Source: a virus
Strand: one strand, 5' to 3'
DNA: 64,000 nt
Virus record (IMG/VR): IMGVR_UViG_3300024348_000025
Span: 1-64,000 of that record
A program made the position numbers and the translations under genes. The first letter of the stretch is position 1; every line of letters begins with the position of its first letter. The notes beneath the pieces were generated by a model. The model was not told the origin of the DNA, searched no databases, and was given only the letters and a program-made list of their open reading frames with translations. Positions 2,646 through 27,537 of this stretch are shown piece after piece.

Positions 2646-3084
2646 TTCTTGTTGGAAATAAATAACTTATCAATTGTTCTAACATTGGATAAATTTTATT
2701 TTGTTCAGATTCAGTGATATAAAACAAAGGTATATTATTTCTTCTAGCATACAGGGCTTTTATTTGATCATGTTTTGCTGTTGATAAATGTCCATGTAAA
2801 CCGCCCCATCTAGGAACTGGGTGGAAATGTTGATCCCCTTGAAACTCTATAAGTGCGAGGGGATTATTATTTTCATCTAAAATTGCAAAATCATATCTTA
2901 ATTTCTTTATTGCTTTTAAGTTAGGAAATGTATATTCGGATTTAAAGTGTATCTTATGTTTTTTAAGCCATCTAGATATCATTTTTTCACCTTTAGAGCG
3001 ATCAAACTTCACTTTATATTTAGGAAAGTAAGATTCTACTGCTAAAAGTTTATTATCTGAATCGTATGTAAAGTTTTTAGTCAT
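2638..3084 (-). CDS. PD-(D/E)XK-type endonuclease (VSR/homing-like)
   Basis: This protein of about 148 residues has the nuclease core: GEKMISRWLKKH near the N-terminus, then RYDFAIL, then the IEFQGDQHF motif, then a helix with KHDQIK. The order R-x-D-F … I-E-x-x-G-x-Q-H-F is typical of small very-short-patch-repair and phage free-standing nucleases. Conserved D and E/Q residues would bind metal. Four ATGs lie close together (3105, 3096, 3087, 3084). I chose the one overlapping the stop of the upstream 1,460-residue gene by 8 bases, as expected for coupled translation. It could be a homing-type or recombination nuclease. Confidence 0.7.
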   Translation of the reverse strand: MTKNFTYDSDNKLLAVESYFPKYKVKFDRSKGEKMISRWLKKHKIHFKSEYTFPNLKAIKKLRYDFAILDENNNPLALIEFQGDQHFHPVPRWGGLHGHLSTAKHDQIKALYARRNNIPLFYITESEQNKIYPMLEQLISYLFPTRIN

Positions 3085-6000
3085 CATCGTCGTCATCTTC
3101 GTCATTGTATCTATAATTTCCGCCTTCTACATAATTAGAAAGATCTTCTTCCCAATTGTTTCGAGTCATATTTGGCTGAGATAATTTATTTCCTGTCAAT
3201 TGTTTTAAGACTTCATGAGAATTGACATCTGGATATTGTTGCGCATCCTGTCTTGCACTATCTTTACTATTTCTATTGTCAGATATTAAGTATTGTCTAT
3301 CGGAGTCAGCAGAATAAACAGGAAATACACCATTGAATGCTTTGTATGCTATTGCTCTGCCTTCACCTATATTTTTTAAGGCTCCTGTGCTTGGTGCGTT
3401 TTGCATTATATTTTTTAAACCATTACCGCCAGTAATTTTTATATTTCCCATTTGGCTGGTCAATTGCTGGATAATTTGTGCAGCCATTTGTTTTCTTTGT
3501 TCACTATAGAAGAAATCTCTAGAACCAGTTTCAAATGAGTCAAAACAAACATTCCCATTTCTATCTTCCCAAACATAAGATTGAAGGTGGACTTTTTTAG
3601 TAACATCTTCAATTACAAATGTACAAGCCTTAGGAGACAAGATTGCGTCAAATGCTGCTCCATAAGCTGCATTTTCTGGGTGCTGGCAACATCTAGTGTA
3701 TTGACCTAAGAACATTGCCCTAGCATCCTCTCTTGGTAAAAATCTTCCGATATATTTACCAGCTTTTACCGGACTAATTTGAGCCCATTTAGGAAGAGGA
3801 TTTTGTTGAGATAAAAGATACATTTCTTCTAATCTTCTGTATTTTTCATCTGTAAGTTCTTCTATATCAGGTTTATCTTCGTCATAATCTTCTTCAATAG
3901 CATCTTCTTCATCATCATCGTCAACTGTATACCATTTAGCTACTTCATAGGCAAAATCCATACTCTTTGGTGGCTTGTCTCCGAAGAATTTTATAAGGTT
4001 TTGGTATCTAAGGATATTGACTAATGAATTTGGATTTGATTTAAAAGGCTCCATGTAAGCAGCTTCAGCAACTACATATTCTGTGCTGCTTGTTTCATTA
4101 TCAATTTTAACTTTTTTATTCCAGTTAGTTACAATAAACTTTAAATCTTGAGACAAAGCATCTCTATAAAACTGTAATAAATATCTTCCAATTCCTTTGT
4201 TTTTGGAAGTGGTGGCGGATGATGGAATTGGTTGAGATGAATCGTGAATTATCTTGTTTTTTTCTACATCAGTTAATTCACTAAATTTTGTTATATTTTC
4301 TGGATCATCTTTAGTTCTATTTGGATTGAAATGTGCTTGAGTAGTAAATTTATCAAGCCATTTCCATATTTCATTACCAAATACAAGCACGAGTAAATCC
4401 AAGTTTTTATATGATTCTTCAATTTTAACCCAAAAATTTTCATACATGTTAGAGCGAATATGATTTTCATCTAAAATCCCTCCATCTTTTCTATTAGAAA
4501 AGCTCACATCATGTTGGCTTGTATTGAGTTTATAGGCTTCTTTAATATCATGTAAGTCAAGTTCACCAAAATCTACATTACTTTCAACGCCTATCTCAGA
4601 CAAGTATTCTCTTAAAATGTTTTCAATTGCATTTTGAATCTCTGAATCATTTGTAGCTCTATAGAAAGCTTTCATATTAACATTGGTTTTTACAAATTTA
4701 TTGAATTCTGCTTGGATTCTACTAATTAAAGTTCTAACTTCATTGTCGGTTTTTATCTCTTCTTCTGTTCCAACAGGTTCTCCATTTTGATATGGAACCA
4801 TAAAGAAAAATCCTCTAGAAATAATGTCATCAATTGTACTTGAATTATTAAATTTAGAATTTGTCAAAGTATTGAATGATTGAATATAAGAAGAATATAT
4901 ATCTCTTGATTCTTTCAAGTCATTAATAATTCTAAGCCTCATATTGGATCTTCCATTTCTAAGTATTTCTGATAAATCTGTTGTAAGAATTTGTTCAGAA
5001 GTATTACATTTGGAACAATACCATTTTTGAGTCTGAGAATCGAAATTTTTGTTTCCTCCACATGATTTGCAATTTGACTGTAAAAAATTGGCAAAAATGC
5101 TCAAATTTCTTGGAGAAAACATTTCGTAATCTTGGAAGCGTTCATCAGCATCTTTATCTCTGACACTACTTCTTGTCAATTCTAACAATCCAAATAAACC
5201 ATCTAGATTATCAATTCTGGTTCCAGGTGACATATAAAAATGTTTAAGAAGTGAATAATATTTTTCACCCTTCTTTTGATATAGTTCAGGATTTTTTCTT
5301 GCTATAGTTTGAACAGCATTTTCAAATCTTTGTATAGCTTTGTTATTATTTTCAGACAAATATTCGGAATCAAATAATGATACTAAAATCCCTAACTCAT
5401 GGGTATCGTATTTGCTCTTGATCTCTGGTGGAATAAATTTGAATGAGTGTGTAAAGTTTCTAAAAGAATAAATACCTTTTGTTCTCAAATTAAGAAAATC
5501 TTCACCAATTTTTCTATTTTCTTCATCTATGACTGATGGAGTTTTCATTTCCGCAGCTAAATATTTTGCGCTTGGATTATTTCCAAACATTACTACTGCA
5601 TTTTGAGCAATCCATCTTAGAGATTTTTCTTTTCTAGGATCGTCTCTTTTGTCTCTAAAGGAATCAGATATATAAGATAAATAATTATCATCAATCCACT
5701 TATTAATTTCATCTTCTTTAGCTTGTTCTTGCTCTGGGGTTAATATATATTTACCATTGATAATTTGTTCAAATCTTGTCCTATCATATGCATCATTTTG
5801 AACAATCTTAGACATTTGGCCTGGTCTCATTAACATAACATCTTCGCCAAACTCTCTGTGTGCATGATAAAAAAGAGTTGAATATCCTAGTGCTAAAGTT
5901 CTAGTATTTTCAACATCGCCTCTTGAATTCTTAACTAGCCAATCAAGATATGATTTTAAACAGTTGTCTATAATTTTTTTAGCATCAGGAAAATTTTTGA

Positions 6001-7459
6001 ACACCTGATTATCAATAAGACCTTTATTTACATAATCCATAAATAATTGTAGTTGTTCAGGCCTTTGTTCTAAATATTCATATGACAAGTCAGTCATTTG
6101 AAGACTGTATGCTAAATTACCCAAATTGCGTTCATTTTGCACTAAAGTTTCAGTAATTTCTTCAGCAGATTTACCTTGTAATATTAATGAGTATGTTACA
6201 TTGGTGATGTAATCTAAATCATAATTCTTTTCTTTGCCTGAAAAGAATTGCGCTACAAATTCTTGACCAAACTGTTTTAAAATCCTATTCAACTTCTCAT
6301 AATATATATGCCCAGAATTTATTCCAAGACGAATAATATTTTCGTATTTCACTAAAAATGACATTACATTCTTTAGCGCTTCAGGGCTTGGATTTTGTTC
6401 ATATGGTCTGGCTTTTTCTTTTATATGTCTGTCGGAGCTAAACTCTACTTGATTATTTTCATTAGCTAAATAATTATCGTAATTTTCTCTTCCATAATCT
6501 TTAATAAATTCTAGTCTATGAAGAATCTCTTGCAAGGAGATTCCTTCAGAATATCCATCATCTTTTGTTTTGTCATCATCTGCAAAATAAACAGCTAAGA
6601 AATCATCTTTGTCTACACGTAGTTTCTGCTCGTCTTCACCACCAGTCATAAAATAGCCTGGTCTATCCATAATGTGAGAAATCATTGGCATAATTTTTTG
6701 AGGATTTTGCGCAAGTTCTTCTTTGAATAAATCTTTCAAATATGCTAATAATTTTGAGTGACGTTCAGTTTGATTGTCAACTTGTACTGGGCCTCTAAGT
6801 TGCCTGTTAATACTTTCAGAATTATCAACACCCATATAAACATTAGTTGCATACATTTGGGCATAACTTGTAGTTTGATTGCTTATAGATAAAAAGCTAT
6901 TATCTTTGTAGTATGCTGCTAATGCTAAACCTAAACTTTCAGCAAAAAAATTAGAAACTAAATTACCATTTGAGCTAAAAGTATCTTTGAAAGATTTAAT
7001 TAAATCTGTAATTTCATTAAGAGATTGAAGAACGTTCCCATTATTTTTAACAAGCTGATCATAAAAACTTCTAGTTAAAGCATTAGCATTTTGAAAATGA
7101 ATGTCTGTGTAAGAATCTCCATATTTTGGTTGAGTAAGAATCGGTCTTGGGTTTGTAAAATCCATTTTATATCTTGTTGGATATAAATTGTATGCTTCTT
7201 CAAGTTCTGGAGTTACATTTTGATTATGAACTCTTTGCCAATCTACTTCTTCTGAGGTTGGCTTCTTTTCTTCAGTTGGTTCTTCTTGTGCTGTGATGAA
7301 TCTAGCATAACGGCAGGCAAGCTCAAAGAATTCAGAAGAGTTTTTATATGAGCCTTGTTCGTCAAATGCTGAAGAAATATTAATAGCTCTTTGAGCAGTT
7401 TTAACTATTCTTTTTTGATTATTGGAAGTTTTAATTGAAGCAATCTTGATACGAGGCAT
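3077..7459 (-). CDS. Very large hypothetical protein (1,460 aa) with zinc ribbon and CC-motif domain
   Basis: No named family is recognised with confidence. Residues about 20-60 carry a segment resembling N-termini of three other proteins here and ending in FITAQ, followed by an acidic linker. A four-Cys zinc ribbon (CKSCGG … CSKC) lies near residue 800. Around residues 1245-1300 there is a distinct domain with GQYTRCCQH followed by VHLQSYVWED and FDSFE; I recall similar C-C-Q/W/fD-E patterns in large phage proteins, but cannot name the domain. The extreme C-terminus is nearly all Asp/Glu. An RBS (AGGAAA) precedes the ATG. Size and place in the late-looking minus-strand region suggest a virion or injected protein, which is inference. 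Confidence 0.65.
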   Translation of the reverse strand: MPRIKIASIKTSNNQKRIVKTAQRAINISSAFDEQGSYKNSSEFFELACRYARFITAQEEPTEEKKPTSEEVDWQRVHNQNVTPELEEAYNLYPTRYKMDFTNPRPILTQPKYGDSYTDIHFQNANALTRSFYDQLVKNNGNVLQSLNEITDLIKSFKDTFSSNGNLVSNFFAESLGLALAAYYKDNSFLSISNQTTSYAQMYATNVYMGVDNSESINRQLRGPVQVDNQTERHSKLLAYLKDLFKEELAQNPQKIMPMISHIMDRPGYFMTGGEDEQKLRVDKDDFLAVYFADDDKTKDDGYSEGISLQEILHRLEFIKDYGRENYDNYLANENNQVEFSSDRHIKEKARPYEQNPSPEALKNVMSFLVKYENIIRLGINSGHIYYEKLNRILKQFGQEFVAQFFSGKEKNYDLDYITNVTYSLILQGKSAEEITETLVQNERNLGNLAYSLQMTDLSYEYLEQRPEQLQLFMDYVNKGLIDNQVFKNFPDAKKIIDNCLKSYLDWLVKNSRGDVENTRTLALGYSTLFYHAHREFGEDVMLMRPGQMSKIVQNDAYDRTRFEQIINGKYILTPEQEQAKEDEINKWIDDNYLSYISDSFRDKRDDPRKEKSLRWIAQNAVVMFGNNPSAKYLAAEMKTPSVIDEENRKIGEDFLNLRTKGIYSFRNFTHSFKFIPPEIKSKYDTHELGILVSLFDSEYLSENNNKAIQRFENAVQTIARKNPELYQKKGEKYYSLLKHFYMSPGTRIDNLDGLFGLLELTRSSVRDKDADERFQDYEMFSPRNLSIFANFLQSNCKSCGGNKNFDSQTQKWYCSKCNTSEQILTTDLSEILRNGRSNMRLRIINDLKESRDIYSSYIQSFNTLTNSKFNNSSTIDDIISRGFFFMVPYQNGEPVGTEEEIKTDNEVRTLISRIQAEFNKFVKTNVNMKAFYRATNDSEIQNAIENILREYLSEIGVESNVDFGELDLHDIKEAYKLNTSQHDVSFSNRKDGGILDENHIRSNMYENFWVKIEESYKNLDLLVLVFGNEIWKWLDKFTTQAHFNPNRTKDDPENITKFSELTDVEKNKIIHDSSQPIPSSATTSKNKGIGRYLLQFYRDALSQDLKFIVTNWNKKVKIDNETSSTEYVVAEAAYMEPFKSNPNSLVNILRYQNLIKFFGDKPPKSMDFAYEVAKWYTVDDDDEEDAIEEDYDEDKPDIEELTDEKYRRLEEMYLLSQQNPLPKWAQISPVKAGKYIGRFLPREDARAMFLGQYTRCCQHPENAAYGAAFDAILSPKACTFVIEDVTKKVHLQSYVWEDRNGNVCFDSFETGSRDFFYSEQRKQMAAQIIQQLTSQMGNIKITGGNGLKNIMQNAPSTGALKNIGEGRAIAYKAFNGVFPVYSADSDRQYLISDNRNSKDSARQDAQQYPDVNSHEVLKQLTGNKLSQPNMTRNNWEEDLSNYVEGGNYRYNDEDDDDDD

Positions 7460-8111: not shown

Positions 8112-9017
8112 ATGAAAATTCTTTATATCGGAACAGATGTAGAAATACCAGTGCATCCACTTGTTGACTACCAGAATGATTGTCTTTTAATTGGCTTAAA
8201 AGAACTTTATGGTGATGACGTAGTTGATGTCAATCGCAGAAAGCACTTATATACAGATTATCCTGAAGAGCTTGTTCCGAATAATTACGGTAAGGGTTTT
8301 ACTGTTACTCGTTGTATTGAAGAAGACAATGCTGACAGAACAGATATTGAAAACAAGATCAAGAGCAAGTATTTTGATTATGTAATTTATGGATCTGTAT
8401 GGCGAAACACTGATTATTTGAAACTTGTTTTAGATAATTATGATCGCAACAAGATTGCTTTTATTGATGGCAATGATCAAACCAAATTTCATCATGTGAT
8501 TAAGCACGGAACATTATATTTCAAGAGAGAGTTAATGTACGAAAACAACATGGAGTTTGAACAGTATTTTGGAAATGTAATTGCTATTGGTTTTGCTTTT
8601 CCTACAAAGAAGCTTAAGTTTGGTGAAAAGAAAACCCAATTTATGTCCCAATCAGTACCTGGCAATCCTAGAACATATGTTTTTGATAAAGAAGAAGATT
8701 ACTTTGCAGATTATCAAAAGTCTCAATTTGGAATTACAGGGGCTAAGGCTGGATGGGATTGTTTGAGACATTATGAGATTATGGGTAATGGTTGTATGCC
8801 ATTGTTCGAAAATATTCATGAATGTCCTAGGCACATTATGATGCATGTACCCAAGGCTCTATTGACAAAGATTATGTTCTGGTATGTAAATGACCAGAAG
8901 TGGTTGATGCGAGAATACAATTATTATCTTGAAGAATTACAAAAGTATGTAGTAAAATTCTGTACTACTGAAGCTGTAGCAAAAAGATTTGTAAGTAAGC
9001 TCGAACTCTACAAGTAA
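8112..9017 (+). CDS. Glycosyltransferase-like protein, paralog of the gene at 9042
   Basis: This 301-residue protein shares most of its length with the convergent neighbour at 9042-9977. Both begin with a Rossmann-like strand (ILYIG/ILYVS), contain LYTDYP(E/D)EL near residue 55, and share AGWDCLRHYEIMGNGC near residue 215. The last motif resembles the donor-binding R-x-x-E/G-x-x-P region of GT-B glycosyltransferases. The sugar and acceptor are unknown. A strong GAGGAAG site precedes the ATG, and its own promoter lies upstream. It probably belongs to the same glycan system as the GT2 and oxygenase genes nearby. The glycosyltransferase call is motif-based and moderate. Confidence 0.55.
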   Translation: MKILYIGTDVEIPVHPLVDYQNDCLLIGLKELYGDDVVDVNRRKHLYTDYPEELVPNNYGKGFTVTRCIEEDNADRTDIENKIKSKYFDYVIYGSVWRNTDYLKLVLDNYDRNKIAFIDGNDQTKFHHVIKHGTLYFKRELMYENNMEFEQYFGNVIAIGFAFPTKKLKFGEKKTQFMSQSVPGNPRTYVFDKEEDYFADYQKSQFGITGAKAGWDCLRHYEIMGNGCMPLFENIHECPRHIMMHVPKALLTKIMFWYVNDQKWLMREYNYYLEELQKYVVKFCTTEAVAKRFVSKLELYK

Positions 9018-17145: not shown

Positions 17146-19515
17146 TTAAAAACCGATTCTTTTATATCTTCTTACATTAAATGCAGATCTGACAAGTTCA
17201 GGTCTAATTACACCCTTCATAACTTCATTAATAATCAATTTAAGATCCATCATTGATAATTGCATTTTGTCAGTTTGAATATTATCCTTAACTAATTCTA
17301 ATGCATTAATTCTTCTAGAAAACTTTTCACTTCCTAATGTTTGATCTAAAGCTCTTTTAAAATCAGATAAAGGAGAGTTGCGCATTGTGGTGATTTCTTC
17401 ATTTAATTCTTGCAATCTTCTATAAGAGTCTGGTGAAGGATTAGCTAAGAGACTTTTCTTTTCTTCTTCTAATTCTCTCATATATTCCAAGTGATCAAAA
17501 CCAGTCTGTCTATTAAATGTGCCTGAACCGCCATATTGAGACACGGTTGTTTTTAAGCCTTCAGATAATTTAATAAATGTAATATACGCATCAATTACAT
17601 TAATTTGCATTGATTTAGCTGAAGAATATCTCTCTTCAAATAGTTGCTTTGTATTTACATACTCTGCACCAGGACAATCATTAGGATCTTTACATGTAGA
17701 TACAAAGTTTTTAATTAAACCTAGAGCCTTACATGCATTTTCTTGTTTGTCATAATGATAAACAATTGATTTAGTATTTAATTTCTCAGCAACAGAATCA
17801 GTATTATTTAAATCTTCTGGAGTAAAGTGTAATGCTGCTGTATTAAGCATATGTCCAATGATATTTTGAGTAAACACTTTCCATTCAGATCTTAAACTAT
17901 ACATTTGTTTCCCTGATACAATGCTGCCAGGGACAATAGGAGTTTCATCAGATTCAGAAGTTGAGTGGGTTGCTGGAGAGCCGTCTGGAAGATTCCATTC
18001 TATATCTGGATCAAAACCAATTACTGATTCTTCTCCACCAGTCCATCCAAAATATTCACCAACCAAAACAACTTTCTTTTTAATTACTGGTCTTCCTTGC
18101 CCATCAAAGCTTTCTAAAATATCGCATGGAATTGTAAAGTCAACAATGAAAGATTTATTTGTTGGACATCCTAATGGTGTTTTCATTGAGATTGGCATTG
18201 GAATTGCATCTAATTTAAAATCTCTTCTCAATGTTTCAAGCATGGATCCTTCTTGATTTGATAAGATTTTAAAATTAAACTCTTTATATCTTTCATCTAA
18301 TTGTGCTAAGAATGATTGATTGATTATGTCAGATACATAACCTAATCCAGATGCATCTAAATCAGCTGTAAAACTATTTGGTCTTCTTTGAGAAATGTTT
18401 AAAAAGTAAAATTTAATTAACTTTGAAGCAGGGTCGTTCAATTCAGGTTCAATTTTAACTCTATTACCATCTTCGTCCATTTCAAATAATCTTTCAACAA
18501 TTGGTAAGATATGCTCATTGTCATAACCATCAATGACAACTTTTCTCAATTGTCCAACTCTATAGTCGTATGATTCTTTATCTGTCATAGGAGAGCCATC
18601 TGGCTTAGTATTAGGGTTAAAAAATGTCTTTCTATCAATTGCGGCAGAAAAGTCTACTCCTGATTGCTCTAGCATACTTTTCAAATTCCAAACAATAGGC
18701 TGGTCAATTAAATGTGCATATTGTTCCACGCCTTCTTGATTTGGATTTTTTGCTAATATTGCATTCCAAGGTCTTACTTTTGCTTGTCCCAAAGAAGCCA
18801 CTGATTGTTTCATGTTTTTAATTTCATCAGCGAGTTTCATTAAACTAGGCGGAGACAATCTTTCAACTAAAGATCCTCTACTATCTGAAACACCTATGGG
18901 CGAATATGCTTTAATAACAGAATCAAGTTTACTTACATTTGGTACTGATAAAAGCGCTGCTAAAATATCTTCATATTCTAGTCCTGGTATTTCTTTTAAT
19001 AATCTTTCGACATCTTCATTAAAACCAGCTTTAACTTCAGCCCTTTTAACAGCTATTTCTTCTGCAATAAAATGTTTTGCTGCAACTATTTCTTGTTTTG
19101 TTTTTAGGCTAAGTAATGCTGAAATATCAGGGATTGCTCTTGTCTTCTTGGTATATAAAGGAATTAACTTTTCAACAACTACTAATTTTTTTCTTTTTAG
19201 AAGTCTGGCTATAATTCTATTTACAGCTTCTTCTGGTGCAATATTAGAGCCTTCAGCTTGTTGCAATTTCACCATCATTTCTCTTAATGCTGGAATTGTT
19301 TTTGCATATGGAAGTAATCTTTTTTTTGTTTCTTCTGATTCTTTTGAAACATCTCCCCCAATTATTCTATATAATTGTGGGACAGTTAGATCTTTTAATT
19401 CTTTAGTTACATTTTTTTCCAACCATTTAATTTTTTCTTCAATTGTCTCACCAGGTATTTGTTCTGGCTTAAGAGGTTTATTTAATGGTTGAGCAAAGCG
19501 GAAATTATTTTTCAT
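17146..19515 (-). CDS. Large hypothetical protein, first gene of virion-like operon
   Basis: This 789-residue protein has no recognised family. It begins NFRFAQPLNKP, a short form of the A-Q ending seen in other N-termini here. Residues ~150-180 and ~660-700 look helical or coiled. A middle domain contains GEYFGWTGGEE and a Cys pair (CKDPNDC). RBS AAGGTAAG precedes the ATG. It is followed without a gap by the two beta-rich paralogs, so a tail or baseplate role is plausible but unproven. Confidence 0.6.
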   Translation of the reverse strand: MKNNFRFAQPLNKPLKPEQIPGETIEEKIKWLEKNVTKELKDLTVPQLYRIIGGDVSKESEETKKRLLPYAKTIPALREMMVKLQQAEGSNIAPEEAVNRIIARLLKRKKLVVVEKLIPLYTKKTRAIPDISALLSLKTKQEIVAAKHFIAEEIAVKRAEVKAGFNEDVERLLKEIPGLEYEDILAALLSVPNVSKLDSVIKAYSPIGVSDSRGSLVERLSPPSLMKLADEIKNMKQSVASLGQAKVRPWNAILAKNPNQEGVEQYAHLIDQPIVWNLKSMLEQSGVDFSAAIDRKTFFNPNTKPDGSPMTDKESYDYRVGQLRKVVIDGYDNEHILPIVERLFEMDEDGNRVKIEPELNDPASKLIKFYFLNISQRRPNSFTADLDASGLGYVSDIINQSFLAQLDERYKEFNFKILSNQEGSMLETLRRDFKLDAIPMPISMKTPLGCPTNKSFIVDFTIPCDILESFDGQGRPVIKKKVVLVGEYFGWTGGEESVIGFDPDIEWNLPDGSPATHSTSESDETPIVPGSIVSGKQMYSLRSEWKVFTQNIIGHMLNTAALHFTPEDLNNTDSVAEKLNTKSIVYHYDKQENACKALGLIKNFVSTCKDPNDCPGAEYVNTKQLFEERYSSAKSMQINVIDAYITFIKLSEGLKTTVSQYGGSGTFNRQTGFDHLEYMRELEEEKKSLLANPSPDSYRRLQELNEEITTMRNSPLSDFKRALDQTLGSEKFSRRINALELVKDNIQTDKMQLSMMDLKLIINEVMKGVIRPELVRSAFNVRRYKRIGF

Positions 19516-21404: not shown

Positions 21405-21905
21405 ATGTATCCAGAATTTGAAAAAACAAAAATAATAGATGATATGGTTTATTGCAATATTGGTAAAGCATATCAAAAAAGTACATTTGGATTTTCTTAT
21501 TCGAATATATATACTGTTAAGATTAGCCAACAATTATCAATAAGTGTCAATGGCATTCATCATCCAAGGGTTTGTTCTCTGGTTCAAGATTTAAATGGTC
21601 ACATATACTTAAGATTTAGAAAAATTACAGATGATTTTCATGAAGATATGCTTTGTCAATTTTATTTTAAATCCAAAGACTTTTCTTGTGCATCTTGTAA
21701 GCATTTTTATCAAGGACAAGATTTAAAACAATCATGCTGCCAAATGAAATCAAACTTAATAATTTTAAATGATTGTGAAATATATAAAGTTGATTTTTTA
21801 AACAAAGACAATTTTGAACATAAGAAAAACAATTCTAAAATAGACTTCCTGAGCTTGCATTTTGGATCTGTAATCGATACAATAATGTTAGGTGATCCTG
21901 TATGA
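21405..21905 (+). CDS. Hypothetical protein with Cys cluster
   Basis: This protein of about 166 residues has a Cys-rich patch (CASCKHFYQGQDLKQSCC) and a further Cys-containing segment that could bind zinc. Family not recognised. I chose ATG 21405 over TTG 21390 because the predicted mRNA starts at about 21385, leaving too little leader for the TTG. The first residues, MYPEF, recur at the start of the unrelated-looking protein at 47410. It overlaps the Rad50-like gene by 4 bases, so it may be part of that complex. Confidence 0.6.
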   Translation: MYPEFEKTKIIDDMVYCNIGKAYQKSTFGFSYSNIYTVKISQQLSISVNGIHHPRVCSLVQDLNGHIYLRFRKITDDFHEDMLCQFYFKSKDFSCASCKHFYQGQDLKQSCCQMKSNLIILNDCEIYKVDFLNKDNFEHKKNNSKIDFLSLHFGSVIDTIMLGDPV

Positions 21906-23095
21906 AGCTTAAAAGACCTACCAAGTTTATTAAAACATTAGAGTTAGAGAACTTTCAATCTCATAAGTATTTAAAACTAAATCTTTCAGAAGGTTTCAAT
22001 GTAATTACTGGCACTAATAATGCTGGAAAAACTGCAATCTGGCGAGCAATTGACTTCATCTTTAACTTTGGTAAAAAGGGGCATGGAAGTTTTGATCCTT
22101 CCTATGTTTCTCACAAGGCATCTTACTGTAAAATTACTGTTCATTTTTATGATGGAACAAAATTAGTCAGAATAAAAAGCGGTCATAAAGGTGATAAAAA
22201 CTCAATTCATATTTACAATGATAAAGATGAATTGATATATGAAAAGCTAAAGGCTGATAAAGCATACGACCAATTTGTAACTGACTTTTTAGGCGACCCT
22301 TCTTATGATGAAGAATTAGGTTCATTGGCGTTTGTTGATCAATCCCAAGCGCCATTTTTGATATCGCTGACAAGTACAAAAATCCCAGAAGTTTTTGCTC
22401 GTCTTATAAAATCTGCTGACTATGACAATGCTGTCAAAATTTTAAAGTCAGAAAATAACTCATATTCATCAACTATCAAATCTAATGAAACTGAAATTGG
22501 AAAGCTTGAAACAGAATTAGAAAAGTATTCTGGTTTAGATGATCAAATTAAAATTGTTGAAGACAATGACAAACTTATTGAAATTAACGATGATATAGAA
22601 AACACAATCACCAATTTATCAAAAATCAGAGAAGATGCAATTGCACTAAAGAAAAGAATCAAAGATCTTAAGACAGAGAATGATAATGACCAAAAGTTTT
22701 TAAATGAACTTGATAACTTAGATGACTATATCACAATCACATCTTCAATTGATGATTTACTAAAAATACATAAACAAATTGAATCTAACAATGAAAAAAT
22801 AAACGTATTAGAGCTTGAAAATGACAAAGATGGGTACTTAATCTCAACAGACTTTTTAAGTATATGGGATGGACTAAGAAAAACTTTTCTATTGATAAAG
22901 GCTCTTGATAATTTAAACACAGATTTGATTGATAAGAATGAAGGTGTTGATTCTTTAACCCAACTTCAAGAATCTGATGAAGCTCTAATTGACAGTATAG
23001 AAATTGAGATTCAGCAATACGAAAGTGAAAACGAAGAATTATCAAAAAAATTAGAGTTCTGTGATACATGTGGACAGAGGAAGAATAATGCATAA
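21902..23095 (+). CDS. Rad50/SbcC-like ATPase, N-terminal half ending at the zinc hook
   Basis: This 397-residue protein has the Rad50/SMC N-terminal ATPase lobe: LENFQSH, Walker A GTNNAGKT (37-44) and a Q-loop region (FVDQSQAPF). About 210 residues of coiled coil follow. The chain stops immediately after a CxxC zinc hook (C387, C390 in FCDTCGQ). Full-length Rad50 continues back through a second coil to the C-terminal ATPase lobe; here that lobe is a separate gene at 24324. The hook would therefore sit at a free chain end. It is overlapped by the Mre11-like gene (8 bases). It should function with Mre11 in DNA end processing. Confidence 0.88.
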   Translation: MKLKRPTKFIKTLELENFQSHKYLKLNLSEGFNVITGTNNAGKTAIWRAIDFIFNFGKKGHGSFDPSYVSHKASYCKITVHFYDGTKLVRIKSGHKGDKNSIHIYNDKDELIYEKLKADKAYDQFVTDFLGDPSYDEELGSLAFVDQSQAPFLISLTSTKIPEVFARLIKSADYDNAVKILKSENNSYSSTIKSNETEIGKLETELEKYSGLDDQIKIVEDNDKLIEINDDIENTITNLSKIREDAIALKKRIKDLKTENDNDQKFLNELDNLDDYITITSSIDDLLKIHKQIESNNEKINVLELENDKDGYLISTDFLSIWDGLRKTFLLIKALDNLNTDLIDKNEGVDSLTQLQESDEALIDSIEIEIQQYESENEELSKKLEFCDTCGQRKNNA

Positions 23096-24059
23096 AAAGA
23101 TTTGCATAGTAGGCGACCCACATATAGATAATAAGCAACCAGGAAGCAGGCTTGATAATTATATGGAAGCATCATTGGCAGATTTAAAATGCACATTGAT
23201 GATTGCAGAAGAGAACAAATGCGATGCAATTGTTTTTCTTGGTGATATGTTTGACAGAATACAAGTTAACGCAGAAGTTACATCAAAGCTTATTCAAACT
23301 TTAAATAAAAATGATTATGGAGAGCCTTGGCCTTTCAAAAAATACACCCTTCTTGGAAATCACGATATAGACAATACAATGTCCAATTTAGACAAATCTT
23401 CATTTTGGACATTGATTGTTTCTGGGTGTGTTGAATATGTTAAAGAAGTGCCTGAATTAGGATTAGTTTTTGAACACTGGAATGGTAGAATTGAGAAAAC
23501 TATTTCAGACGGTATTTTCAAAGACTATGATTATCCTATTGTTTGTGCCCATGCTTACATTGCTAATGAGCCTACTCCTTTCGTTGTCGATGCTATACTT
23601 GTTGATAGCTTTGCTGTCAACCCAAAAACAAGATTGATAGCATCTGGTCATTTTCATTTTGAAATGGATTCTATGAGAGATGACAATACAAGATTTGTTA
23701 ATCCAGGAAGTTTAAGCAGAAGAAACTTTAAAAGTGATGATGCTAATAAAAAAGTTAAGGTTGCTATTGTAGATTATGATTTGGATGGCACTTATTTGGA
23801 TGTGAAATATCAAGATGTTTACACAGCACAATCATATGAGCTTATTTTTGATTTGGAAAAACGAGAAGAAATTAAGGCAATTAAAGAAGAAATTAAAGCT
23901 TTTACCAAATCATTAGTTGAATTTAACTTTGACAAAATGGCATACTTACAAGACCCTATTGATCAAGTTAAAAGTACAGGCATAGAAATGAACCTTGATA
24001 TCGACATTGTTGAAAATGCATGTAGGGCTTTAAATAAATTAAATGCGGAGAAAGTATGA
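23088..24059 (+). CDS. Mre11/SbcD-like nuclease (calcineurin-type phosphoesterase)
   Basis: This protein of about 323 residues has the full metallophosphoesterase set: GDPHID (9-14), GDMFDR (52-57), GNHD (90-93), a CAHA His and SGHFHFE. Mre11/SbcD and T4 gp47 use these residues to bind two metals and cut DNA ends together with Rad50. I chose ATG 23088 because of the GAGGAAGA ribosome site and because the fold begins there. It sits between the two halves of the split Rad50. Confidence 0.9.
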   Translation: MHKKICIVGDPHIDNKQPGSRLDNYMEASLADLKCTLMIAEENKCDAIVFLGDMFDRIQVNAEVTSKLIQTLNKNDYGEPWPFKKYTLLGNHDIDNTMSNLDKSSFWTLIVSGCVEYVKEVPELGLVFEHWNGRIEKTISDGIFKDYDYPIVCAHAYIANEPTPFVVDAILVDSFAVNPKTRLIASGHFHFEMDSMRDDNTRFVNPGSLSRRNFKSDDANKKVKVAIVDYDLDGTYLDVKYQDVYTAQSYELIFDLEKREEIKAIKEEIKAFTKSLVEFNFDKMAYLQDPIDQVKSTGIEMNLDIDIVENACRALNKLNAEKV

Positions 24060-24331
24060 TGACTATTCATGAACAATATAATGAAAACTTAAAGTTTATT
24101 GATAATTTACAGAAACGAAAGTCAAAGACTGAAGGGTCTATTGAAACTAGAAATCAGGAAATAATCAAGATTAGAGAAGAGATCACAAAATTGTCAGAAA
24201 AGCTTAAAGCTGAATACAATTTAGATCCAGCAAATCTTCTAAGCAGAATCGAAGATTTGAGAACTGAGTTTAATGAGAATGCTGAAATTATTAAAAACAA
24301 TTTGGAAAAGTTAGACAATAAAGATGAGTGA
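24056..24331 (+). CDS. Small coiled-coil protein between Mre11 and Rad50 C-terminal half
   Basis: This 91-residue protein is almost wholly predicted coiled coil. It overlaps the Mre11-like gene by 4 bases and the Rad50 C-terminal gene by 8. It could be the missing descending part of the Rad50 coil as a separate chain, or an accessory factor. It lacks Cys, so it does not contribute a second hook. ATG 24059 is an equally good start. Confidence 0.65.
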   Translation: MMTIHEQYNENLKFIDNLQKRKSKTEGSIETRNQEIIKIREEITKLSEKLKAEYNLDPANLLSRIEDLRTEFNENAEIIKNNLEKLDNKDE

Positions 24332-25031
24332 TTACATTTCAAATAAGCGTGATAATGTTTTACGCAAAAATGAATTACTAGAGAAGCGTGGAGTTAGAAA
24401 CACTATTCAGAAAAGTATTGAGGACTATAAAGACAAACTCAAAGAAATTTCTGATATGAGTAAAATGAACTCAAGCTCCATGGATTTACTTAAAAAAATC
24501 TCATCTGAAAGAAGAGTTAACATTGTCACATCTATTGAGAATATAACTAACAAATTCATTCAGCAGATTTATGGAGTTGATCATAAGTTTGTTTTTTCCG
24601 AAGAGGGAGTAACTTTTGATAAGCTTACCCCTCTTATAATTAGCCCATACGAAGGAGAAGAGTTTGCATCTTCTCTAAAAAAAGGCACTGGTGGAGGATT
24701 ACAACAAGTAGCAGGCTTTGGTATTAGACTAGCTGCTTTAGAACTAGAAGATGCCCCACAGCCTTTAGTCATGGATGAACAATTTTCCATGGTTTCATCT
24801 GACTTTAAGATTGACTTACTAAACCAATCTCTAGTTGAATATTTAAAAGCAACTAAGAGACAATCTATTTTTATTACTCACAAAGCTGACATCTTTGGTA
24901 AATATGCTGATAAGATCATAAAGCTAGACAAAATTGATGGAGTAGCTCGTGCAAATGAAGTTACCTATCAAGAAATTATAGAAAATTATACTGCTACTTA
25001 TGATATTAGCGAGGACGAAGATGAGGCGTAA
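24324..25031 (+). CDS. Rad50/SbcC-like ATPase, C-terminal half
   Basis: This 235-residue protein starts with ~80 residues of coiled coil. The C-terminal ABC lobe follows: signature-like GTGGGLQQV (121-129), Walker B with catalytic Glu PLVMDEQFS (147-155), and an H-loop region (IFITHKAD). These complete the ATPase begun in the 21902 gene. No Walker A is present, so it is not an independent ATPase. The stop of the previous gene and this start overlap, and the stop overlaps the next gene, so all pieces are made in concert. Confidence 0.85.
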   Translation: MSDYISNKRDNVLRKNELLEKRGVRNTIQKSIEDYKDKLKEISDMSKMNSSSMDLLKKISSERRVNIVTSIENITNKFIQQIYGVDHKFVFSEEGVTFDKLTPLIISPYEGEEFASSLKKGTGGGLQQVAGFGIRLAALELEDAPQPLVMDEQFSMVSSDFKIDLLNQSLVEYLKATKRQSIFITHKADIFGKYADKIIKLDKIDGVARANEVTYQEIIENYTATYDISEDEDEA

Positions 25032-25884: not shown

Positions 25885-27537
25885 ATGATAGAAAATGACC
25901 TCAAGAATCAACAACTAGAAATATCCACGTTTAGAAAAACTTTACGTGAAATTGACTGGTTCTTGAGGTCAAAACGTCCCATCCTTTACCTAACCACGCC
26001 TGAAGAGCAAAGAATTGAAGATGGCATTAAACAAATTTGCTCTAAACCTGATCATAAATGGGATCTTATAACTTGGGATTTAATATCAGGTTTACAATCA
26101 ACAAATAGCGCATTCTTGCCTGTAAAAGAGAATGACCGCATTATGGACCAACTAGAAGTATTGACTTGGTTTGATAATCTAGAAATACCAAAAGACAATT
26201 TTTTACTACTAGTTCTTAAAGATTTTTCTAAGTATTTTGGCAATCAGCATACTCAAGGTCAAATAGAGTATAGATTGATTAGAAACATTAAGAATATAGC
26301 TCAAAAATGTGTTACTAAAAACAAAGCTCTTATAATTATTTCTCAGAGTTTTGATCTTCCTAATGAGCTAGATAAATATATTAGTGTTATCGATATTCCC
26401 CTACCTGAAAAAGAACATATCGAATCTAAAATTAAAGATTTATTAGACAAAGCTTCACAAAGAAAAGATTTAGCAGAGAAGTTTAAAACAAAATATTCTA
26501 AAGATGAATTAGAACATATTGTCAATTCATTCAGAGGTTTGACTTTAAATGAATGTGAGCAAGTATGTACCTATTGCATGATAAAACACACGTCTTTAGA
26601 TCCTGAAGCAATATCTCACCAAAAGAGAGATATCATTAGAAAATCTGGTCTTTTAGATTGGATTGAAGTGAATGAAAACCTTGAAAACATTGGTGGTCTA
26701 AACGAATTAAAAGATTGGTTATATAAAAGAACCAAAGCATTCACAAAAGAAGCAGTTGATTATGGTTTACCTCCTAATCCTAAAGGCATTCTTCTTGTTG
26801 GTATTCAAGGTGCTGGTAAATCTTTATTTGCCAGAGGTGTTAGCAGCTTTTGGAACTTCCCTCTTCTTAAACTTGATATGGGCAAAGTGTTTTCAGGAAT
26901 TGTTGGTAGTTCTGAAAATAATATGAGACAGGTTTTTAAAGTTGCTGAATCTGTTGCCCCTTGTATTTTATGGTTAGATGAAATTGATAAGGGTATGTCA
27001 GGTTCTAGGTCTAGTTCTGTTTCTGATGGTGGCACTACATCTAGAGTTTTGGGATCCTGGCTAACTTGGATGCAGGAAAATCAATCTCCTGTTTTCATTG
27101 TCGCTACAGCAAACGATATATCCAATTTACCACCTGAATTAATGAGAAAGGGAAGATTTGATGAAATATTTTTTGTTGATCTTCCAAGCTCCGCAGAACG
27201 TGAAGTAATTTTTAATATTCACTTAAATAAACGAAAAAGAGACATAAACAAATTCGATCTTTCAACATTGGCAGAAGAATCTCACAACTTTACTGGTGCT
27301 GAGATTGAAGCTGCTATTGTATCCGCTATGTATGAAGCTTTTAATGAAAGCAGAGAGTTCAATACAGATGATATAGTGGAATCTCTAAATGAAATTGTAC
27401 CCTTGGCTGTTACAATGAAAGAAGAGATAGATTCGTTGAAATTATGGGCTTCTGAAAGAGCCAGGAATGCATCAAATTCTGGTAAACTAAAGAAATACAT
27501 GATATCAAGGATTCCGAAAGAAGAAGAAGATTTATGA
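25885..27537 (+). CDS. Ycf46-like AAA+ ATPase
   Basis: This 550-residue protein matches the two-part Ycf46 plan. A degenerate N-terminal ATPase-like domain (residues ~15-180; KALIIISQSFDLP and VIDIPLP are characteristic) is followed by a canonical AAA+ module with GIQGAGKS (306-313), ILWLDEID (361-368), and ELMRKGRFDE with the Arg finger region (418-427). Ycf46 proteins occur in cyanobacteria, algal plastids and other bacteria and are poorly understood. Here the gene sits between recombination and helicase-loading genes and overlaps the loader by 4 bases, suggesting remodelling of a replication or recombination complex. Confidence 0.82.
   Translation: MIENDLKNQQLEISTFRKTLREIDWFLRSKRPILYLTTPEEQRIEDGIKQICSKPDHKWDLITWDLISGLQSTNSAFLPVKENDRIMDQLEVLTWFDNLEIPKDNFLLLVLKDFSKYFGNQHTQGQIEYRLIRNIKNIAQKCVTKNKALIIISQSFDLPNELDKYISVIDIPLPEKEHIESKIKDLLDKASQRKDLAEKFKTKYSKDELEHIVNSFRGLTLNECEQVCTYCMIKHTSLDPEAISHQKRDIIRKSGLLDWIEVNENLENIGGLNELKDWLYKRTKAFTKEAVDYGLPPNPKGILLVGIQGAGKSLFARGVSSFWNFPLLKLDMGKVFSGIVGSSENNMRQVFKVAESVAPCILWLDEIDKGMSGSRSSSVSDGGTTSRVLGSWLTWMQENQSPVFIVATANDISNLPPELMRKGRFDEIFFVDLPSSAEREVIFNIHLNKRKRDINKFDLSTLAEESHNFTGAEIEAAIVSAMYEAFNESREFNTDDIVESLNEIVPLAVTMKEEIDSLKLWASERARNASNSGKLKKYMISRIPKEEEDL

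Follow-up and report, generated by a model that had tools for sequence, protein, structure and literature searches.

A four-gene Mre11-Rad50 cassette with Rad50 divided at the zinc hook, and its relatives in phages and Bacillota

The first 64,000 nucleotides of the virus record IMGVR_UViG_3300024348_000025 (the window) carry a cassette of four overlapping genes that very probably encodes a variant of the Mre11-Rad50 (SbcCD) complex for DNA-end processing, with a head assembled in trans from two Rad50 chains, a short stub, a rod-like arm and tips joined through zinc. The N chain contains the N-lobe of the head, the arm and a C-terminal zinc hook, and the C chain contains the C-lobe. Between their genes lie the gene for Mre11 and a small gene, here called sm. 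Rad50 and SMC-like proteins are considered to be defined by a single chain that folds back on itself at the hook. Judged from the sequences of its relatives, the split marks a conserved family and not the quirk of a single genome.

All four genes are located on the plus strand. The N chain (397 amino acids, 21902–23095; Pfam AAA_23, E = 8.5e-14; phrog_16465, E = 1.3e-25) has the Walker A motif GTNNAGKT at residues 37–44 (22010–22033). A GLD break, evident from conservation and from a helix break in the AlphaFold2 (AF2) model, follows at residues 211–213 (22532–22540), about 50 residues above the head. The only CxxC of the chain, C387-D-T-C390 (23060–23071), is identified as a zinc-hook half site by cysteine conservation and by a profile match to Rad50 hooks, and the frame stops seven residues after it. 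The C chain (235 amino acids, 24324–25031; phrog_15167, E = 7e-13, and the family profile) starts with a coil of about 60 residues and continues into the C-lobe, with the ATP-binding cassette (ABC) signature GGG at residues 123–125 (24690–24698), Walker B LVMDE at residues 148–152 (24765–24779) and the H-loop His186 (24879–24881). Residues D151, E152 and His186 are invariant in 57 C chains. Motif reading revealed no ABC signature in the window N chain and no Walker A in the window C chain. The Mre11/SbcD metallophosphoesterase (23088–24059 from an ATG start, with an alternative GTG start at 23061 also possible; Metallophos, E = 2.4e-12; phrog_100, E = 2.8e-12) has all of the motifs GDPH, GD, GNHD, AHA and GHFH in the alignment. 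The sm gene (24056–24331) encodes 91 amino acids and, according to the family alignment, a probable helical hairpin with an NLDP turn. The reading frames overlap by 8 nucleotides (N/Mre11), 4 nucleotides (Mre11/sm) and 8 nucleotides (sm/C). The frames and motifs confirm what the initial annotation had described, namely an N gene with Walker A that ends seven residues after C387/C390, an ABC signature and Walker B in a separate downstream gene, and Mre11 and a 91-residue gene between the halves with overlaps of 4–8 bases.

The window C protein alone produced only chance-level matches in Pfam. Among solved structures, a profile of 57 C chains matched best the C-terminal chains of Pyrococcus furiosus Rad50 (3qkr_B, 1.1e-12; 1ii8_B, 4.5e-12), and relatives matched the C-terminal end of SbcC phrog_77. 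A profile of 63 N chains, in which G211 is nearly invariant and both hook cysteines are invariant, matched the Rad50 N-lobe (5f3w, 7e-9) and, in a second region, the Rad50 zinc hooks (6zff, 1.8e-4; 1l8d from Pyrococcus, 2.5e-4). The top match of the N profile, 4u08, aligns with the arm only; it looks like a compositional resemblance to leucine-rich repeats and was disregarded. The AF2 model of the window N chain has a mean predicted local distance difference test score (pLDDT) of 76.8 and a predicted template modelling score (pTM) of 0.36, and its head superposes on Rad50 1f2u with a root-mean-square deviation of 3.0 over 129 columns. Because the two profiles match the Rad50 lobes and hook and the modelled N head fits 1f2u, the N and C genes encode complementary halves of one ATPase, the product of the C gene being the Rad50 C-lobe. 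Profiles built without the window recovered the window proteins N (2.4e-38), C (1.2e-16) and sm (2.6e-8) beyond what chance would give, the runner-up open reading frame of the window in the sm search reaching only 0.033.

The cassette has the N-lobe with Walker A, the C-lobe with signature, Walker B and H-loop, the CxxC hook and the Mre11 phosphoesterase motifs in common with SbcCD. The single Rad50 chain with both lobes and the antiparallel intramolecular arm with matching strands are absent. We call the cassette a split variant and not a canonical member of SbcCD because the single chain with both lobes is missing; by homology it is assigned to Mre11-Rad50, while its predicted architecture departs from Rad50 in two defining features.

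Scans of viral contigs with the single window N or C protein as query gave no match, and a C alignment of six sequences proved too diverse for searching. The IMG/VR scan with alignments of nearer relatives identified 131 further loci. Among 70 distinct complete N-family frames from phages, 67 stop 2–22 residues past a CxxC; the exceptions comprise one fused protein each from phages Diva and JWF, plus a weak outlier, L141. No open reading frame in the phage loci scanned matched both N and C. The gene order was N-Mre11-sm-C at 59 loci (some contigs counted twice) and N-sm-C-Mre11, the Bacillus-type order, at 7 loci. Thus, the location of Mre11 between the halves, as initially annotated, holds for the window and these 59 loci but not for the Bacillus-type order. 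The sm proteins are mostly 75–112 amino acids long, with a near-invariant proline in the turn that joins two helical stretches in the family alignment.

The split was also found in cultured phages. Microcystis phage Mvi-JY20 has the overlapping N-Mre11-sm-C genes of the window, and its sm was a weak match (0.035) in the leave-window-out test. Bacillus phage vB_BboS-125 has an N chain that ends nine residues after CPLC, followed by an AP2-domain gene, sm, C and then Mre11, which is located at 8250–9230 of L001 and is unannotated in MH884509.1. The huge phage LR745208 contains the same parts, interspersed with a PD-(D/E)XK-like nuclease gene and a clamp-like gene, both named by eye. Such a nuclease and a sliding-clamp-like gene were likewise seen by eye inside the jumbo-phage cassette at L010 6810–9257 and at many IMG/VR loci, the sliding-clamp-like gene of jumbo phages being placed between sm and C; this is reminiscent of T4, where gp45 is encoded close to gp46/47.

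Apparent inteins were observed within Walker A of two N chains (L049 1373–3619, 748 amino acids; L051 605–2725, 706 amino acids) and in the Mre11 of L054 (1500–3827). An origin of the split from a trans-splicing split intein was rejected by eye, as N chains end 2–29 residues past the hook, too short a stretch to accommodate an intein half; the inteins that were observed are situated in other places.

A first scan of bacterial genome contigs with the jumbo-phage C profile gave no match, whereas the Bacillus-type C profile found 10 contigs. The same split is present in the cultured bacteria Thermoactinomyces vulgaris and Baia soyae. In T. vulgaris the order is recA-recX-Mre11-N-sm-C-rny (L145 3526–10401; recA, recX and rny named by eye), and the N chain stops 29 residues past the CxxC, as compared to 18–29 residues in the related Bacillota of the ten-contig scan. 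With PHROG 15167 at E ≤ 1e-8, matches were obtained in 75 of 399 Bacillota genomes. About 60 of the 399 genomes (approximately 15%) encode the C chain in a frame of its own, roughly 150–310 amino acids long, with far stronger E-values, and three genomes have frames of about 690 amino acids (L165–L167). The other matches were weak and in frames of 231–591 amino acids; those with E-values from 1e-8 to 1e-10, mostly in frames of 555–590 amino acids, are probably RecN-like and were set aside. The Bacillota loci that were read had mostly the order Mre11-N-sm-C. In one Bacillota genome the N chain is divided between frames of 109 and 280 amino acids (L173 3844–5147), representing a frameshift, a further split or a sequencing error.

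Full-length SbcC was scored with TIGR00618 at E ≤ 1e-20, a model that may miss divergent SbcC. Canonical SbcC was detected in 2 of 63 Bacillota genomes with the split family, as compared to 29 of 60 genomes without it (Fisher 2e-9, kinship ignored). Two genomes have both systems, and their split copies are ordered N-sm-C-Mre11 (L181 in G103 and L170 in G392); because this gene order is of the phage type, these copies may be prophage.

The window is a metagenomic virus record, for which a frameshift, a pseudogene, an assembly error or a C gene of an unrelated ABC protein might be considered. The probability of such an artefact is negligible. The boundary is the same in 67 of 67 complete phage N chains as well as in cultured phages and bacteria, with conserved motifs; an assembly error is contradicted by the split in vB_BboS-125, Mvi-JY20, T. 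vulgaris and B. soyae, and an unrelated origin of the C gene by the match of the C-chain profile to Rad50 (1.1e-12), the best solved match of the family. The initial proposal that Rad50 is split at the hook was supported; beyond that proposal, the arrangement is widespread.

The three long Bacillota frames are single chains that contain Mre11, the Rad50 N-lobe and the C-lobe (L165 4652–6754, minus strand; L166 2264–4318, plus strand; L167 4083–6170, minus strand). Only about 30–48 residues separate the lobes, a CxxC is missing, and the stretches read around these loci yielded no sm. All three adjoin a large gene resembling AddB. In the Mre11 tree, a quick one in which the window and Mvi-JY20 are on long branches and unplaced, L165–L167 form one group (support 100) inside the Bacillota split clade. 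Because of this nesting they look like a re-fusion that followed the loss of the arm. They were the only uninterrupted Rad50 frames found inside the family, a finding that the initial annotation would have counted against the split, and being armless, hookless and inside the split clade they leave it standing. The union of N, C and Mre11 in one natural chain supports the prediction that they function as one complex, and the fact that sm is missing where arm and hook are missing connects sm with the arm. It is very improbable that the N and C chains instead operate apart or swap partners, perhaps in a controlled switch, without making one stable head. The two chains are encoded by distinct genes, between which jumbo phages place a sliding-clamp-like gene, but they co-occur constantly in one cluster, are naturally fused and hold complementary halves of one ATP site.

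The arm was analyzed by its length and its periodicity. At split loci the ascending arm has 194–359 residues, the C coil about 60 and sm about 88, and the regression of coil plus sm on arm length across 48 loci had a slope of −0.035. With the same anchors, the ascending and descending arms of fused Rad50s were approximately 348 and 378 residues in E. coli SbcC, 176 and 198 in JWF, and 129 and 95 in Diva. Arm length is thus independent of coil and sm, so that C and sm, at one copy each, give no matching descending strand; these lengths led us to reject a descending strand to which the C coil and a single sm both contribute. The pooled Bacillota-type arms showed repeat lags of 47 and 94 residues (z 26.9 and 25.0). 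For single arms, lag 47 ranked top in 28 of 81 and lags of 43–49 in 48 of 81, as compared to 13.8 expected, and the fused Rad50 controls gave no comparable signal. Cut back from the hook, Bacillota-type arms comprise 5, 6 or 7 units of 47 residues and a remainder of 22–33 (about 25+47n), while jumbo-phage arms cluster near 200 and 245 residues with a less sharp lag of 44. Because the length is independent of the C coil and sm, and because Bacillota-type arms are whole runs of 47-residue repeats, the arm appears not to be the usual antiparallel two-stranded coil. Together with the Rad50 identity of the C-lobe and the hook and with the conservation of the split, this supports the suggestion of the initial annotation that the hook is a free end in a different architecture. 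Whether periodic arm elements matter in Rad50 has been described as unclear (PMC5344682).

We propose that one ABC head forms in trans from an N and a C chain, and that the coil of the C chain pairs with roughly the first 50 residues of the N arm, up to the GLD break, which is probably the top of the resulting stub. Mre11 would bind this stub, and two heads with an Mre11 dimer would perform ATP-controlled cutting and resection of DNA ends, feeding phage recombination and replication. Above the GLD break, the arm would have no descending strand from its own chain and would form an extended helical rod of units of about 44–47 residues, partnered by sm or by another N chain, with its tip joined through zinc to a second N chain. 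Several points weigh against this proposal. The window arm (229 residues) is diverged, with a weak repeat (best lag 49, z 2.5), and no homology between sm and the arm repeats was detected. Kinship among the genomes makes the Fisher and z values overstate certainty. Furthermore, the AF2 models of N chains have a pTM of 0.35–0.36 and do not fix the arm geometry, and their helix lengths differ, with 43–68 residues in the window arm and 99 and 110 residues in L147.

The partner of the arm can be envisaged in more than one way. Two N-chain arms may pair with each other in parallel, forming a rod that spans the distance between the GLD break and the hook, with sm at the junction or the tip, a possibility that we entertain tentatively. 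Homodimeric arms need not match C or sm in length, in agreement with the observations, the long AF2 helices of L147 have no obvious internal partner, and coils such as tropomyosin have long-range repeats (PMC5344682); against this, the fused forms lack sm as well as the arm, which associates sm more closely with the arm than with the head. That several copies of sm line the arm in place of the descending strand, with about one helix per unit of 44–47 residues, is consistent with sm helices of about one arm unit and with the conservation of sm beside N and C, none having been found beside the armless fusions, but is made somewhat unlikely by the missing homology of sm to the arm units and the weak repeat of the window arm. 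An arm that folds on itself into a zigzag helical bundle would need no partner, and the window model does split the arm into short helices. The L147 model weakens this reading, and one added unit, as between the observed n of 5, 6 and 7, would reverse the direction of the hook; we regard it as improbable.

The split family shares the head halves, the Mre11 phosphoesterase and the CxxC tip hook with SbcCD/Mre11-Rad50 of Pyrococcus, Methanocaldococcus and E. coli. It differs from canonical SbcCD, in which a single Rad50/SbcC chain supplies ascending and descending arms of similar length, by its two chains, its third small subunit and a repeat-built arm without matching descending strand. T4 gp46/gp47 is also a phage Mre11-Rad50 encoded near a sliding-clamp gene, but gp46 is a single chain of 560 amino acids with an internal CPTC hook, and genes 46.1 and 46.2, between 46 and 47, have no resemblance to sm by eye. 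Separate N and C chains make one head in crystals of the recombinant P. furiosus Rad50 catalytic domain (1f2t, 1ii8, 1us8), an artificial counterpart to the split seen in nature; these constructs were engineered and have neither long arm nor hook, whereas the natural N chain has both. In the part of PMC3175470 available, Mre11-Rad50 fusions (Mimivirus R555 and others) are described, not split Rad50; Mre11 is joined to Rad50 as in L165–L167, which differ in that they stem from the split family and have no arm or hook. The available part of a jumbo-phage survey (PMC7824862) reports SbcC as nearly universal and mentions no split. No earlier description of a split Rad50/SbcC was found in openly licensed PubMed Central (PMC) text, a scope that leaves out subscription papers and most preprints. 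In PHROGs, the N chain (phrog_16465), the C chain (phrog_15167) and the Bacillus-type sm (phrog_18563) are listed as 'exonuclease', 'ATPase' and 'unknown', and are not grouped as one system.

Just downstream of the cassette, the window encodes an AAA ATPase of the phage family phrog_8638, of unknown function (25885–27537, plus strand), followed by genes for DnaC, DnaB, DNA polymerase, RecJ, ribonucleotide reductase and terminase. Two minus-strand frames of 1460 and 789 amino acids (3077–7459 and 17146–19515) had no PHROG match at E 0.001.

Taken as a whole, we lean towards the view that these genes represent a widespread class of Mre11-Rad50 whose Rad50 is made of two polypeptides and is accompanied by a small subunit specific to the arm. 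The arm itself would be built as a rod from tandem units of 44–47 residues, and its length would vary by whole units. The class would replace canonical SbcCD in part of the Bacillota, serve many giant phages, and have been re-fused once after the joint loss of arm, hook and sm. The existence of a large natural class lacking the fold-back points to a head that can assemble in trans and to an arm and hook that constitute a separable module. Because the arm varies by whole units of 47 residues and armless relatives exist, signalling from hook and arm to the head becomes directly testable. The family also gives meaning to genes labelled 'exonuclease', 'ATPase' and 'hypothetical' in many phages and Bacillota.

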